This document shows positions 7,942 through 45,770 of a DNA stretch of 64,000 bases, piece after piece (positions within the stretch are counted from its first letter, which is position 1; each line of letters starts with the position of its first letter). The notes under the pieces are model-generated. The model was not told where the DNA came from, ran no database searches, and saw only the letters and a program-made list of their open reading frames with translations. The translations under genes were made by a program, and so were the position numbers. The stretch covers positions 33,922,052-33,986,051 of the forward strand of contig CM026565.1 in the NCBI GenBank assembly GCA_015143295.1, written 5' to 3'. Origin of the DNA: Tetracentron sinense (Eukaryota; Streptophyta; Magnoliopsida; Trochodendrales; Trochodendraceae).

Positions 7942-9380
7942 TTGATAAATAAACTAAATGGCTATTGAAGCTAATAATTCCATTACTTCCCAGACAAGAT
8001 TTCATGACATTTGCTAGTATCCGATCTAGAAGAGTACAATGCTAATTTAACAAAATTAAAAGCGAAGCTAACTTTAAAGCTTCTAGATTTAGAATGGTGC
8101 CAAACCAACTTGTAAGGAATGTTCCTCACATTGATAGGGATCTTGCCAATTGCCAAGATCGCTTGTCGAGGCAATAACGATTCCAAAAGTGGCCTGTTCC
8201 AACCCAATGGATGGAAAGCATAATATGCCTAGTTCTAAAAAGGAAATGCATAATGTCTAATGACAAAACTTATAGAGTGTGGTACTAAACAAGTCTCCGC
8301 AAAAGAAATGACTTTTAATAGAAAGACATGAAATTCTCTAGGGTTATAATTGGACTCCTTGGAGTCTAGTTATGTCCCACAAGTCAACACATGACCATTT
8401 TAATACCCCTTAATTGTGGTTAAGATTCGCTAACTCATAGGGTTCAACCATCTAACCTTGGTTTTTAGAAAAAAAATATTAACTTAAAGGTTAAAGTTGT
8501 TAACCATAGTTAAAAGAAGGCTTTTGTGCTGTTACAACGCAACAAAGATATTCAAGTCTAATAGAAAATATCCGTGAGGTTCATGCATGTGAGAAGATTC
8601 CAGGTCCTATTCAATCCCACTCAAAATCTCTTTAATTAGGACCAGCGCCATCCCTAATTAGGAGCAGCGCCATCCCGTTCGCTTGGGTCCATATGTAATG
8701 GATATTTTTTAAGTTAGGGTCCTCCTTCACACCCCCGCCTTTTGCGTGAGTGATAGGGGTGCGGCATTCGATGGAGGGAAGTTGGGGGATCCAATTCCAG
8801 TTGCAAGAGCTCTAATGCCCAAGCTAATATCTGACGTACTAAATTAACATCTGACATACTAACTGTACTAACGTAGATAAATGATGCTTACACAAAAATA
8901 ATAATAAAATTGGGGTCCTCCTCTACCCATGCCTATATCCTCTAAAATCAAATAATACAGTATAAACTTATTTTTTTCTCCCAAAAGTTATAAACTTATT
9001 TTTTTCTCCCAAAAGTTCCAGGACTCTAGCCCCTGCCACCTAGCTTTACCCCTGCCTTTGACTGTCATTTAATTTGTTGACATTTTAATCTTTAAAGTTA
9101 ATATTTTTTAAAATTCTGTATTCTAAAAATTAAGATTAAATATAGTAAGTCTAAGAGTTAAATAATCTTAACCATAATCAAAGAGAATTAAAAAAGGAAC
9201 ATCCGCCCATGCTGATTTGTGGGTGCGATTGAATTCAGGAGAGTTCAATTGCGATTTGATATGACACCAAACTCCCGTAAGAATAACATGTTACCTGTCA
9301 CCTCTAAGTCATGTGGCAAGTTCAGAGGTGGAGTCGGGATTTTTCTCGTAGGAGGCAAGTGGAGACGAATTTTGGAAAGT
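7942..9380. other. Gene-free stretch with MITE fragments
   Basis: No coding exon was recognised. About 8345-8530 contains the 'ggttaagatt..ctaaccttggtttttaga' core seen in several MITEs. 8961-9018 holds two tandem copies of a 28-bp segment around 'aacttatttttttctccc'. 9215-9260 resembles the MITE terminus 'gagagttcaattgcgatt'. Confidence 0.5.
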
Positions 9381-13598: not shown

Positions 13599-14179
13599 TA
13601 TTGAATATTAGCAAAAATTGGAGACCTCCGATCGATCGGCCAAGGTAGCGCTGATTGATCGGCGCGACGGGAAAATCCGAAAAACGGTTTTGATCATCAA
13701 TCGATTGGCCAGGGTAGCGCCAATTGATCAGTGGAGCGCCGAGATACTTTCTTGGTGCGGTTTTTAGAAGTTTATTTGCTTTGGGAAACTCCTATTGCGA
13801 GATGAGACTTTCTAGTTGTCTAGGTCTCTTGTTTAGACCTATAAATACGTAGTTATGGGTCTAGGGTTTGCATCTTGAAGATCAAGGGAATTCTTTTGCA
13901 TTGAGAGTAGGAGATAGTAGAAAATGTTAAAGCATACTAGAGCTTGGGAAAGGTCTAAGGGAGGATAGATAGGGATTCTTCTTTGGGTTGTCATTGAGAA
14001 GGTGAGTTGAGTGATTTTATACTAGTTCCTCAAGGTTTCTATGAATAAGGAAGGGATCAGATCTTGACCCGTGGACGTACGCAGGTTGTTTCTGAACCAC
14101 GTATATCTCTTATGTTTTCAAAGGGGTGTGTTTTTTAAGTTTACTCTTTTCCGTCTGGTTTCAGTTATTTTCCACAACA
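13599..14179 (+). repeat. Left LTR of the Copia element
   Basis: About 581 bp. It contains several 'cgatcgatcggc' words near its start. Pairs with 15903-16489. Confidence 0.85.
13840..13847 (+). promoter_or_regulatory. Candidate TATA box of the Copia LTR
   Basis: TATAAATA in the middle of the left LTR, in a plausible promoter position. The right LTR has the decayed form CATAAATA (about 16146). Confidence 0.5.
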
Positions 14180-37653: not shown

Positions 37654-39013
37654 TGTAAGGGATAAAATTCGTAAAAATGAGTAAAAAGAATGGGTAAAAT
37701 AGGAATTTCTTATGCTAACAAATTCTAACAATTTAGCCGACAGAAGCCCACTTGGGCTATGTGCTAGCTCTCTTTAGTGTTGTCTGACAGGTGACCTCAT
37801 CATGACTACACAAGTCATGATGACTCCAAATGCCTATAAAGAAGCAAGAATCACCAGAAAGAAAAAGAAGATGGTGCGGAAGGCAAGAGAGGAAATAAAG
37901 GGCAGAAGAAGAAGAGGAAGAAGGAGATCTGAGAAGCTTGAGTCATTCACTCCCCTACCCCGAAGGGCTATGCAGGCGGCCACTCACCTGATTCTCTCAT
38001 CTTCCTTTGGTGTTATCCGGCTACTTGATGCTCTTTATGGCCTCACAATCTATTATGGTCACCGGATTCTCTCAAATAGGCCATGAATAGTGCCGAATCC
38101 GTTGTCGCGTTGTCTGTTGTGAATAGTGCCGAATCCGTTGTCGCGTTGTTTGTTCTGAATAGTGTTGAGCTCGTTGTCTGTTGTGAGTTGCACAAGGTAC
38201 CCGTTGTTTGATGCACAACGTATACGTTGTTTGTGCCTTATCCGAGCTGCGTTGTCAGAGCTACGTTGTTTGTGCTTTATCCGAGCTGCGTTGTCAGAGC
38301 TACGCTGTTTGTACCTTATCCGAGCTGCGTTGTCAGAGCTACGGTGTTTGTGCCTTATCCGAGCTGCGTTGTCAGAGCTACGGTGTTTGTGCCTTATCCG
38401 AGCTGCGTTGTCAGAGCTACGTTGTTTGTGCCTTATCCGAGCTGCGTTGTCAGAGCTACGTTGTTTGTGCCTTATCCGAGCTGCGTTGTCAGAGCTGCGC
38501 TGTTTGTGCCTTATCCGAGCTACGTTGTTTGTGCCTTATCCAAGCTGCGTTGTCAGAGCTACATTGTCTGTGCCTTGTCCGAGCTGCGTTGTCAGAGCTA
38601 CGCTGTTTGTGCCTTATCCGAGCTACGTTGTCAGAGCTACGTTGTCTGTGCCTTGTCAGAGCTACGCTGTTTGTGCCTTATCCGAGCTGCATTGTCAGAG
38701 CTACGCTGTCTGTGCCTTGTCCGAGCTATGTTGTCTGAGCCATATTCTTTGTGCCTCCTGAGTTACAATCTCCAGAGCATAACACCGGAGCTCATCCTCA
38801 AGCGCATATACCTAGTGACCTCACGATAAGTATCTCTATACTATTTTGTTCATATGTTCATGTATTTGTGCCTTATACTGACTTTATCATCGGAGCTTAT
38901 TTCAGGGTGCACACCCGCCCCCTCAGACTCATTCACATGTGGAGTTTTGCTGTTATTCCTCTACCAGCAAAGCAGCTATAGACGTGTGGCGTGTACGGGA
39001 TTTTCCCCTTTCA
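37654..39013 (+). mobile_element. Solo LTR of a third family, inserted in copy A
   Basis: Begins TGTAAGGGATAAAATTCG and ends GATTTTCCCCTTTCA, flanked by a perfect 5-bp duplication TGAAC (37649-37653 and 39014-39018). Copy B has the unoccupied TGAAC at 52780-52784. A candidate TATA box (CTATAAAG, about 37834) lies 180 bp inside. It contains the 39-bp minisatellite. No coding region for gag-pol. Confidence 0.88.
38220..38745 (+). repeat. 39-bp minisatellite, about 13-14 units
   Basis: The unit runs about 'gttgtttgtgccttatcc' plus 'gagctgcgttgtcagagctac', and itself contains a near-duplicate of 'gagctRcgttgt'. Because 39 is a multiple of three and the unit has no stop in any plus-strand frame, all three frames stay open for about 500 bp and give 13-residue repeats. 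This is a repeat artefact, not evidence for a protein. Confidence 0.9.
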
Positions 39014-41572: not shown

Positions 41573-42182
41573 ATTTACATGCCCGTGCCCACCAGCATTT
41601 GTCCATTTGAAGTCCGTACCCTTCCTTAACAGAATATGTTCTCCAGGCTGTGAGAATAATTACATGCTGCCACATCTGCCTCATGTTGGGGTTGTACCTT
41701 GGCTTGAAATCGAGTTTCGAAATAATTTAAAAGTTGTAAAAGATTTGTCTTGATCTTGTGCTTCTTTAACCAAAAAAAATCCTTGGGCTTCACATAAATG
41801 ATTTTATAACATATATTATATTATTTACGTTATAAACGTTTCCATAAAGATAATTATTATTATTTTTTTTTGTTTGGTTGTGTCTATAATATAAGGATCT
41901 TTTTTTATGTTATTTGTTTGTGTTTTTGTTTTACTTGTGTTTATAGTAAATAAACATTAAAAATTCTTATTTTTATCATTTTGAAAAATGACAATGTAGA
42001 GAAGGGCAGGAGCGGAGCCATGATTTTCTTATAGGGGGGCTAACAATGGGGTGTGGCGATTCAAGGTGTAGGCCCCATTTTTTTTTAAGGGTCAAGTTCA
42101 TGGGTCATTTCATTAATTTGTATCCGTTTGTGAGGAGTATATATTTTTTAAAGTTAAGGGCCGCTGCTCCTTTTGCCCCGTG

Positions 42183-45100
42183 TGTAGAACCCTGGAACCG
42201 AGTTCACTATGCTATGAATAGTGTTAGTGAATAGTGTCCTTATATGGTGTGTGTAAAGGCCTAAGGCCTCTCATTTTGTTCTTGATATTATGATTAGTCA
42301 ATTGAGGGTTTTAGGTACATGGTTTGAGTCTTAAAAAGAGAGTGTAAAGATACTCTAAGTGGGTAAAATCAATGGTACAAATACCCTAAGTGTTTCAATG
42401 GGTTGTTGGTGAATAGTGCTAGTGCATGAGGAATAGAGAGGCCGGAGCCTCTCATGCGTGTCGGTGTGAATTTGATGATCATTGAGGTGGGTTAAAGACT
42501 TATGAAAAATGATTTATGAGTTGTGAGTAGGGTGTTGGACACAAGGGAAAAGAGTGTGAAAACACTCGAGGTGTTCTAGGTGTTGAAAAGGTATGTCTTG
42601 GCATTGGCTTCAACTTTAAAGGGCTCTAGTTTAGTCATCGTTGTTCATAATCGAATGATTACTGAATTTTTGGAAAGGTATTAGAACCCTCTTCAAGGTT
42701 CATGTTTATCATTTTCCCAGATTTTGAGTCGGGGCCAAGTCAAAAGTGGGAATTCCAAAATCGGGTCGGCTGCAAATCTGGGCTGTCGCAACTCATTGCA
42801 GACCAGTCCGCTTTATGGGCATTTTGGTCTATTAATAAAGAAGAATTAGAATTTCTTTAAAACACAAAAATTGTTCCTCTTCGAAAGACGAATCCAACGC
42901 AAGTTGAATCGTCAAAATCGGAGCTCCGAGTCAAAAGTTATGGCCAAAATACTGAAGTGCGTTTTGCAGCACCGGTCAATACCGAGAGATCGGTCCACCA
43001 CCGAGAGATCGGTCATAAGCACCGATCGATCGGTCCACTACCGATCGATCGGTCATCTATCGGTCGTCTATCGGTCCTACGCAATTTTCAGAATTTTTTA
43101 AAGGGTTTTTTTGGTCTTTTGGCCACTCCACCCTTATTTTTAAGGGTTGGCTCGAGCCAAGGGTGTTCATAAACACCCTTAGCCATATTTTGAGAGGGAG
43201 TGAGAGAGGAGAGAAGGGGTTTTCTCCTAGGGCATCAAGTGGAGAAAGATCAAGGGTTTTGAAACCCTAGAGCATCCCAAAAAGCTTGGATCTCTCAATT
43301 TACGACTCAAGCACATGAGGAGCACGTTCTCCAAGCTCGACAGCATCTTCCATGGTATTTTTCAAGGGTTTTCTTCCCCTTATCAAGGTTAGTACACCCT
43401 TCCTAGTTCAGCTTAGTGATAACCTAGGTTTTCCTTTAAGCATGCTTGTGTGTGATCTTGTATATATTCCCTCTTCTTAATAATGTATAAAATGCCCTAA
43501 ATGAACAAGATGAATTAAATGGTTGTGGATGTATGGGATGTGGATGGTAGAGGTGCTTGGATGCCATGTAGAGGTGATGATTATTGTGTGATGAAAAAGG
43601 TGGAAGGGCAATGTATCCATAATGCACATACACTACATGTTTGATGAAATGCTTGATTTAAATATACAAGTTAAAGGTTAAAAGAATTATTGCATATCAC
43701 ATATTTGATGAAATGCATGAATGAGGACTAAATTAAGACAATGAAAATATGATTTAGGGGTTTCTCCCCAATTGGGAAACTTGAATGAAATGTTATACAT
43801 GTTCCTCGAAAACTCACATGCTTATTGGGATTATAGTAATACTATATGATGTTTATCATTATATCACCATGATATCACCAATTGTTATGCATGCATAAAT
43901 ATATCACTATGATTTCCACAACTTGCTACACACACAAGCACGGATATGTGAATGAACTAAGGTTTTTAAATGAGCATTAAGAAGTGAAACGAGTACAGGT
44001 AAATGTAAGGAAAGTAAGTAAGACCTCACATGCATAAGTTTGATAAATGAAATGTTAAGGAGGTTGGTAGCCCCGGTTAAGGGTGCTAACCTCTGGCTCA
44101 TAAGTAAAGTATTGGACTGTCAAGGAGGCTGGTAGCCCAGGGATGTGCGGGTGCTAGCCTCTGGCTCATAAGAAATATGTTGAACTGTCAAGGGGGTTGG
44201 TAGCCCAGGATTGTGCGGGTGCTAACCCCTGGCTCATAAAAAAATATATTGTACTGTCAAGGAGGTTGGTAGCCCAGGGATATGCGGGTGCTAACCTCTG
44301 GCTCATAAGAAAAGAATTGAATTGTCAGGGAGGTTGGTAGCCCCGGTTAAGGGTGCTAACCTCTGGCTCATAAGAAAAGTAACGATATTGTCAAGGAGCT
44401 TGGTAGCCCAGGATTATGCGGGTGCTAACCTCTGGCTCATAAGAAAGGTGTTGTATTGTCAAGGGGGTTGGTAGCCCAGGGATGTGCGGGTGCTAACCCC
44501 TTGCTCATAAGAAATATATTGTACTGTCAAGGAGGTTGGTAGCCCAGGGATATGCGGGTGCTAACCTCTGGCTCATAAGAAAAGAATTGAATTGTCAAGG
44601 AGGTTGATTAACCTCTGGCTCAGAAGAAAAGTAATGGAAATTGTCAAGGGGGTTGGTAGCCCAGGATTGTGCGGGTGCTAACCCCTGGCTCATAAGAAAG
44701 ATATGGAACTATCAAGGAGGTTAGTAGCCCAGGGATGTGCGGGTGTTAACCTCTGGCTCATAAGTAAGGTATCGTACTGTCAAGGAGGCTGGTAGACCAG
44801 GGATGTGCGAGTGCTAGCCTCTGGCTCATAAGAAGTGTATTGTACTGTCAAGGGGGTTGATAGCCCAGGGATGTACGGGTGCTAACCCCTGGCTCATAAG
44901 AAAGGTATTGTACTGTCAAGGAGGTTGGTAGCCCAGGGATATGCGGGTGCTAACCTCTGGCTCATAAGAAATATTGAAATGACAACTTAAAGAGGAATTG
45001 TATGATGCATAGACATGTTTTAGTTTCATAATAATTATGACTTGATAAAATGTTTATGTATTATGTTGCTTTACATAATTATGATCTGTACTATTCCATC

Positions 45101-45576
45101 ACTTATATATGTTATTTACTCGTTATTATAATGGTTAGCTAGGAGCTTGTACTTGCTGAGTATTCCATGTTCAGCCATACTTTTATGTCGGCAGGTACAA
45201 TATACGTTTATGTATTCTGGGTCCGTGGATCGGGGTTATCAGGGAGAGTAGAAGCTTGATTGAATTGTCACCAGACATTGGGGGCTCGGATATGTGGTAC
45301 TATGGGGGGGTTGAGTGAGAGAGACATGTATTTTGGGATTTACTTTTGGGAGGATTTTCATGTAGGCTTGAATTGGTGATTCAAGCATTTGTACATTTGT
45401 ATTATTGTATTTTATTCAGTCGTTCGTTTTTGTAAACACTTGGGAGTACATTTATTTTAAAGAAATTTTATGTGTCACTTTTTGGCATGCCTTGTATGCT
45501 CTTGCAGGATGGTTGTCGTGGTAGGTAACGAGCTCAAATATCGCCTAACTCCTAGGGGGTGTTTTGGGGCATTACA
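42183..45576 (+). mobile_element. Solo LTR, family 2, 3.4 kb, inserted in copy B
   Basis: Begins TGTAGAACCCTGG and ends GGGGCATTACA. Flanks are CCGTG (42178-42182) and CTGTG (45577-45581). Copy A shows the unoccupied site as CCATG (28836-28840). All three differ by CpG-type transitions from one ancestral CCGTG. Internal landmarks in order: 'gacgaatccaacgcaagtt' (42889), a cluster of 'ccgatcgatcggtc' words (43020-43080), the minisatellite (44054-44975), 'catacttttatgtcggcagg' (45176). The organisation recalls long Gypsy LTRs (Tekay/Del type), but the lineage is a guess. No internal gag-pol. Confidence 0.82.
44054..44975 (+). repeat. Minisatellite of about 66-69 bp units with paired arms, 14 units
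   Basis: The unit runs 'gtcaaggaggttggtagccc', then about 12 variable bases, then 'cgggtgctaacctctggctc' and 'ataagaaa' plus a tail. The left arm GGAGGTT and right arm AACCTC are complementary. In most units a change in one arm comes with the matching change in the other. Unit 9 has lost the loop. Units with 'agccccggttaagggtgct' are a second loop variant. Confidence 0.92.
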
Positions 45577-45770
45577 CTGTGGCTATATCATCTTCAATTA
45601 AATAATTTAAGTATAATTTTCTTTCTAAAGTTCAAGGGCAACTTCCGGATATGCCCCTCCTCCCAAGCTACGCCCTTACTGTTTTTTTGTTTTTCAAAAG
45701 TTGGGGGGGCTGGCCCCATGTGGCTCCGTCCATAGATAAGGGTAAATTGTAATTTTAATATATATATATA

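Follow-up and report, generated by a model that had tools for sequence, protein, structure and literature searches.

Hairpin units of a minisatellite in a plant LTR family: a probable row of structured elements in sense RNA

A minisatellite of 14 hairpin units lies within a solo LTR in a window of 64,000 nucleotides from Tetracentron sinense, the window being the whole stretch of DNA that was analysed. Judging from sequence comparison, we consider it probable that this array is a row of sense-RNA hairpins kept by selection, and that it would function as a cis-acting element, probably offering repeated protein-binding sites. Selection for a hairpin in RNA or DNA had been raised in the initial annotation. 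Support for it came mainly from related LTRs and favours RNA, while the window array by itself suggests a weak case for selection on pairing, with two pair positions changing on both sides. All comparisons were made within one genome, in which neither array units nor family copies are independent of each other. LTR minisatellites are easily mistaken for slippage products. Should the present units be RNA hairpins under selection, some of the bulk of non-coding plant DNA would have an RNA function open to testing, a signal by which gene-less elements are recognized would become plausible, and the abundance of copies in each genome would amount to a natural experiment on stem evolution through G·U.

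The array and its host LTR

The 14 units start at positions 44059, 44124, 44192, 44261, 44329, 44395, 44463, 44531, 44599, 44648, 44716, 44784, 44852 and 44920 (Table 1), and their stem is longer than first described, comprising 11 pairs and an upper stem. The arm versions reported initially, GGAGGTT/AACCTC, GGGGGTT/AACCCC (4 units) and GGAGGCT/AGCCTC (2 units), were all present in the 14-unit array. Pairing is kept in 152 of the 154 cells of the 11-pair stem; unit 6, previously given as the only unit to break it, is indeed broken, but unit 13 also carries one mismatch (A·C). The change from TTGG/CTAA to TTAG/TTAA in unit 11 likewise keeps pairing, but consists of two one-sided neighbour changes (G·T to A-T and G-C to G·T) and no double change. 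Upon reassigning right arms to left arms, none of 200,000 reassignments reached 152 paired cells, in a test that ignores shared descent. The GC and CG arm versions recur inside a higher-order repeat with a period of 253 bases detected by the repeat finder, and their repetition in the window array therefore looks like block amplification. The caution in the initial annotation that part of the signal may be block amplification was right for the window array.

Table 1. Positions of the array, of individual units and of accompanying features in the window
Feature	Positions	Strand	Evidence or remarks
Array of 14 hairpin units, spacing mostly 68 bases	44059..44985	+	Repeat finder and unit listing
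Unit 1 hairpin, short CCGG-type loop	44059..44094	+	
Unit 2 hairpin, GGAGGCT/AGCCTC version (also unit 12)	44124..44162	+	Sense -23.5 kcal/mol, z -3.2; antisense -13.3, z -1.6
Unit 3 hairpin, GGGGGTT/AACCCC version (also units 7, 10, 13)	44192..44230	+	Sense -23.2, z -3.2 (sense only folded)
Unit 6, lower stem broken by one G to C change	44395..44433	+	
Unit 8 hairpin, commonest version	44531..44569	+	Sense -21.2, z -4.0; antisense -10.9, z -1.4
Unit 9, loop deleted, arms kept	44599..44616	+	Same short unit present in other copies
Unit 11, two one-sided pair-keeping changes	44716..44754	+	
Solo LTR, gene-less LTR retrotransposon family	42183..45576	+	Ends TGTAGAACCC...GGGGCATTACA; homology to other copies
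Target-site duplication, left copy CCGTG	42178..42182	+	4/5 letters as in right copy
Target-site duplication, right copy CTGTG	45577..45581	+	4/5 letters as in left copy
Conserved anchor hairpin, 0.2 kb downstream of array	45147..45200	+	Sense z -3.4, antisense z -1.5
Second cluster of palindromes within this LTR (ACCGAGAGATCGGT, ACCGATCGATCGGT)	42978..43076	.	120-base windows z -5.2, -6.1 on +; -5.9, -3.9 on -

The solo LTR has the termini TGTAG...TTACA and is the only match of its family, referred to as type 1, in the window among the matches listed. Other copies also have TG...CA ends, and in some of them (e.g. loci L010 and L017) the 5-base target-site duplication is perfect. Among the loci read, L015 and L021 hold copies in the order LTR, inner stretch, LTR; the LTRs measure 3.2 to 3.3 kb, and about 1.55 kb lies between them. 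In L021 a primer-binding site (PBS), TGGTATCAGAGC, which presumably fits initiator Met tRNA, follows the 5' LTR, and a polypurine tract (PPT), AAGGGGGGGAGGA, precedes the 3' LTR; L015 has the same ends. No coding region was found in the inner 1.56 kb of L021, the one open frame of at least 60 codons being 69 codons long and lying at the edge, so that the family seems to be without genes of its own. In this it resembles a large retrotransposon derivative (LARD), with which it shares long LTRs and a PBS and PPT flanking a non-coding inner region. It differs in that the inner region is only about 1.55 kb, whereas that of a classic LARD is longer, and in that the structure sits in the LTR. As to an affiliation with the chromovirus (Tekay-like) lineage, which would be marked by a reverse transcriptase, an integrase and a chromodomain, type 1 offers no genes to judge by; a flanking target element in L027 gave a match to SH3_Tf2-1, with the Chromo match below its cut-off.

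Pair states in type-1 units and related LTRs

The type-1 alignment comprised 495 units, some of them from diverged families, taken from the window and 33 further regions (504 matches, 9 dropped as too gapped). Only one stem pair, 8-42, stands out in it. This pair is A-T in 356 units, G-C in 128, G·T in 4, A·C in 3 and another combination in 4, and the change could have passed through G·T. Pair 11-39 is T-A in 384 units, T·G in 61, C-G in 47 and another combination in 3, with C·A never seen; since T·G is this common and is the usual state of the pair in diverged arrays, two one-step changes may be all that it reflects. G·T or T·G also prevails at pairs 13-37 and 15-35 (453 and 409 of the 495 units, respectively). 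Type-1 units vary more in the loop than in the arms, and little variation is seen in the arms or in the tail TGGCTCATAAG. Examined as a tRNA-like candidate, this tail gave no tRNA call. Orthologous type-1 arrays carry their unit types in much the same order, indicating that most of the repetition is inheritance and block copying.

To account for descent, a tree was built from 206 distinct units, 27 of the 233 having been removed for their short cores, and compared with a home-made null that shuffles substitutions, in two versions for type 1. Pair 8-42 scored highest of all column pairs, with whole-alignment E values of 0.57 and 0.41 under the two nulls and an E of about 0.003-0.004, derived arithmetically, for the 14 stem pairs alone. 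No other type-1 stem pair was significant under the tree null, 11-39 included.

Related LTRs were found via a weak search, and they keep the unit frame but not the letters. In the sister family F4, 40 of 2,241 candidates were scored and 22 arrays read; one F4 element has only a zinc knuckle, in three open pieces. The F4 LTRs mostly carry seven full units with seven different arm pairs, which are complementary in their commonest forms, and the outer stem co-varies too. A shuffle test was performed on 79 gapless units out of 132 distinct ones (1,185 stem cells, 500 shuffles preserving column variability). The real units have 98.1% of stem cells paired (mean of shuffles 88.8%), 149 cells with both sides changed (43.9) and a covariation score of 0.392 (0.206), with none of the 500 shuffles as high in any of the three measures; slid registers gave only 33.7 to 51.5% paired. 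The number of doubly changed pairs, 8 of 15, was not above shuffles (mean 7.4; 248/500 as high), nor was the number of pair types (491/500 as high). RNAalifold predicted 14 of the same 15 pairs from the F4 alignment. To connect the seven modal unit types, the most economical tree requires no fewer than 12 pair-state changes, with 8 pairs variable, and exact permutation of the seven arms gave 1/5,040. Double transversions occur at columns 6-44, from G-C to T-A in 24 of 158 units, and at 10-40, where A-T stands beside C-G and T-A (22/158). At pair 5-45, 149 of the 158 units have G·T. Conservation in F4 is higher in the loop, where 15 of 19 columns reach at least 90% identity, than in the stem, where 14 of 30 do, as expected if the loop were presented to a protein.

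Under the tree null, E fell below 0.05 for 7 of the 15 F4 stem pairs when only those were tested. In the unit alignment and R-scape-style statistics proposed in the initial annotation, pair 8-42 and these seven F4 pairs were significant when the stem alone was considered, but no pair passed in the whole-alignment tree test (best E 0.41 for type 1 and 0.17 for F4). Some F4 stem columns that are not partners of each other also co-vary, with a strength equal to that of true pairs (e.g. 15 with 48).

Pair states were also counted in three further relatives. In the F2 sample, 137 units with the CTCACAAG tail, out of 202 with full arms, have T-A in 75, C-G in 34, T·G in 25 and another combination in 3 at pair 15-35. 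In F5, the first 100 of 1,388 pattern matches, counted by eye, have A-T or G-C in 87, G·T in 9, A·C in 3 and T·T in 1 at the free pair. Two loop letters, mostly TT/CC, were also seen to track the A-T/G-C stem pair in F5 (L023 290-720 and the same first 100 of 1,388), with exceptions. F7 is a single, non-tandem hairpin, represented by 19 hairpins and 10 arm versions in the loci examined with a search pattern in which the six inner pairs and the three leading letters of the right arm were fixed. Pairing is kept in 88 of its 90 cells (53 Watson-Crick, 35 G·U, 1 A·C, 1 other), and G·U occupies pair 2 in all 10 arm versions and pair 3 in 8 of 10, the right-side T there being set by the pattern.

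The anchor hairpin is shared by these LTRs, and in the window it departs from its most frequent form. Its 22-base core has 14,667 exact matches in the 1.16-Gb genome, while a reversed control has 0. Among 20 of the first 31 listed anchor sites, all on one contig, picked by place rather than content and judged from the listing, 17 have, no more than 1 kb upstream, a hairpin or array of a recurring kind (11 F7, 5 F2-type arrays and 1 F5-type array) and 3 have none of the recurring hairpins there. Short repeats GAAGGG-TCTC-CCTTC and GAGGGG-TCTC-CCCTC, an apparent double change, were also noticed upstream of the anchor (L016 +8587, L013 +1528, L011 -9356), followed by tails such as CTCGCAAG or CTCACAAG.

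Strand evidence and rival explanations

Single changes away from Watson-Crick pairs on the sense strand yielded G·U over A·C at 27:10 in type 1, 28:11 in F4 and 15:5 in F2, or 70:26 pooled over the three families (p 8e-6). Including the upper stem lowers the type-1 ratio to 38:20, showing that the upper stem itself has no G·U bias. The non-stem controls for this comparison are not wholly even. Transitions per site were C>T 3.8, G>A 3.6, A>G 1.4 and T>C 1.2 in type 1; 5.8, 4.4, 1.6 and 2.3 in F4, where C>T amounts to 29 at 5 sites and G>A to 31 at 7; and 1.8, 2.2, 1.1 and 0.2 in F2, where A>G amounts to 9 at 8 sites and T>C to 1 at 5. When G·T and A·C were scored alike, background window hairpins (3.5 per kb) gave 126 G·T versus 122 A·C, distinct type-1 hairpins 106:4, F2/3 20:7, and other families 38:35, background hairpins dominating in the last. 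A hairpin-density scan of sampled loci likewise returned mostly background hairpins among the matches listed.

Pair-keeping and pair-breaking changes were then compared between inner branches (46:13) and tips (67:54), with p 0.003 over the three families. By family, the contrast has p 0.014 in F4 and p 0.11 in F2; in type 1 it is absent on the full tree (15:6 versus 31:19, p 0.59) and present on a tree made without the arm columns (24:0 versus 44:27, p 1e-4). Mutations at the tips also lean to G·U and pair-keeping, though neutral decay was expected there.

The rival that survives best, although we regard it as unlikely, is the arm-to-arm correction through a cruciform that the initial annotation had offered. 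One arm would be copied as the other's complement during reverse transcription or replication, by way of a snap-back strand or cruciform and with no functional selection. Such templating would yield double changes in several families at once, including the F4 double transversions at 6-44 and 10-40, and the pair-keeping lean of tip mutations fits it too. However, copying gives Watson-Crick pairs and should erase G·U, which persists nearly fixed at several pairs (F4 5-45, type-1 13-37 and 15-35, F7 pairs 2 and 3), and it predicts no bias of G·U over A·C. Templated correction is thus disfavoured.

A role at the DNA level, with the palindromes acting in the promoter region as cruciforms or as binding sites for protein dimers, or else being preferred targets of nested insertion, we judge to be quite improbable. 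The array may lie upstream of the promoter, several type-1 copies are inserted in or adjoining the hairpin arrays of other LTRs, and the second palindromic cluster at 42978-43076 and F7 (z -6.3 and -5.2) fold well on both strands. By contrast, array units fold better in the sense orientation (z -3.2 to -4.0 for five units folded) than in antisense (-1.2 to -1.6 for four), and a DNA cruciform predicts no G·U bias because the opposite-strand counterparts would be A·C mismatches. RNA is therefore favoured over a DNA cruciform, although folding of 120-base windows was modest against shuffles, with z 0.4 to -3.4 for the array and -0.2 to -2.0 for F4. Loops of 19 to 24 bases, as found in these hairpins, should also make poor cruciforms, and a sequence-specific dimer site would keep its arm letters. 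A weak preference for palindromes at insertion has been described for plant LTR elements (PMC6911290) and would suit copies nested in palindromic sequence; in the available text of that source it concerns 20-base target-site stretches, Tekay is without it, and covariation would be left unexplained.

Least probable of all is that unit phylogeny suffices, a few paired ancestral types having been amplified in blocks so that the covariation is shared descent: it fits most of the repetition in the window (orthologous unit order, the 253-base period, best-pair E of 0.41-0.57), the co-varying non-facing F4 columns and the failure of any pair in the whole-alignment test, but F4 needs its 12 pair-state changes even on the best tree, F2 and F5 vary at other pairs, the single-copy F7 hairpin also varies in a pair-keeping manner, and why each ancestral type was paired is left unexplained.

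Proposed role, known systems and other repeats

For the preferred reading, a row of selected sense-RNA hairpins, we propose the following course. The array would form a hairpin row in the sense transcript of the LTR, and selection on elements still transposing would have kept each hairpin folded while stem letters drifted by paired changes, often via G·U. A protein, encoded by a helper element or by the host, may then bind repeatedly along the row of hairpins, and binding could serve export, packaging or protection of the element RNA; both the binding and the step it serves are what we infer. The array precedes both a TATA-like stretch and the conserved hairpin, a position that suggests U3 and would place it near the 3' end of the full-length RNA. 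Because the gene-less type 1 bears the longest arrays read, use of the array would have to be in cis, with helpers.

More tentatively, these hairpins may represent an undescribed class of RNA element in a plant LTR superfamily of more than ten thousand members, characterized by one or many sense hairpins per LTR, compensatory drift and tandem expansion, and forming a multivalent docking array through which even gene-less elements would be recognized. In such a class the hairpin might stay while its stem drifts, with the loop conserved in F4.

The nearest working models for export or packaging, though not relatives, are the RNA export elements of retroviruses and retrotransposons (CTE; RTE of IAP), which in the text available on them are likewise structured cis-acting RNAs in the sense transcript of LTR elements, but come from animal elements. 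To our knowledge, neither is a long tandem minisatellite. Rfam covariance models gave no match in the window at the gathering score, with one weak match (E 7.3) outside the array. Neither a report of covarying hairpin arrays in plant LTRs nor the letters of the anchor hairpin were found in the literature searched, and absence is claimed within those searches only. Retand-type arrays (PMC11963269) are also family-specific tandem repeats in plant LTR elements, but as portrayed in the available text they sit in the internal region, between pol and the 3' LTR, whereas the present array is in the LTR; the main text of that paper contains 0 occurrences of hairpin and 0 of secondary structure.

Some further observations concern nested copies and other repeats. 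Nested type-1 copies were noted at L011 3095-6523, L023 2132, L025 3368-6594, L009 2133, L010 4399 and in L015, their sites being an F4-unit loop, type-1 units or places within about 30 bases of the anchor hairpin. Palindromic clusters of the second type (ACCGATCGATCGGT, TGCGATCGATCGCA, CCGATCGATCGGC) occur in the window at 42978-43076 and at 13628-13728, and in L020 at 8610-8871, and their ends seem to change together. Finally, another minisatellite at 38223-38756 of the window consists of units of 39 and 25 bases (TACGTTGTTTGTGCCTTATCCGAGC...), and all three forward frames are open across 183 to 205 codons.
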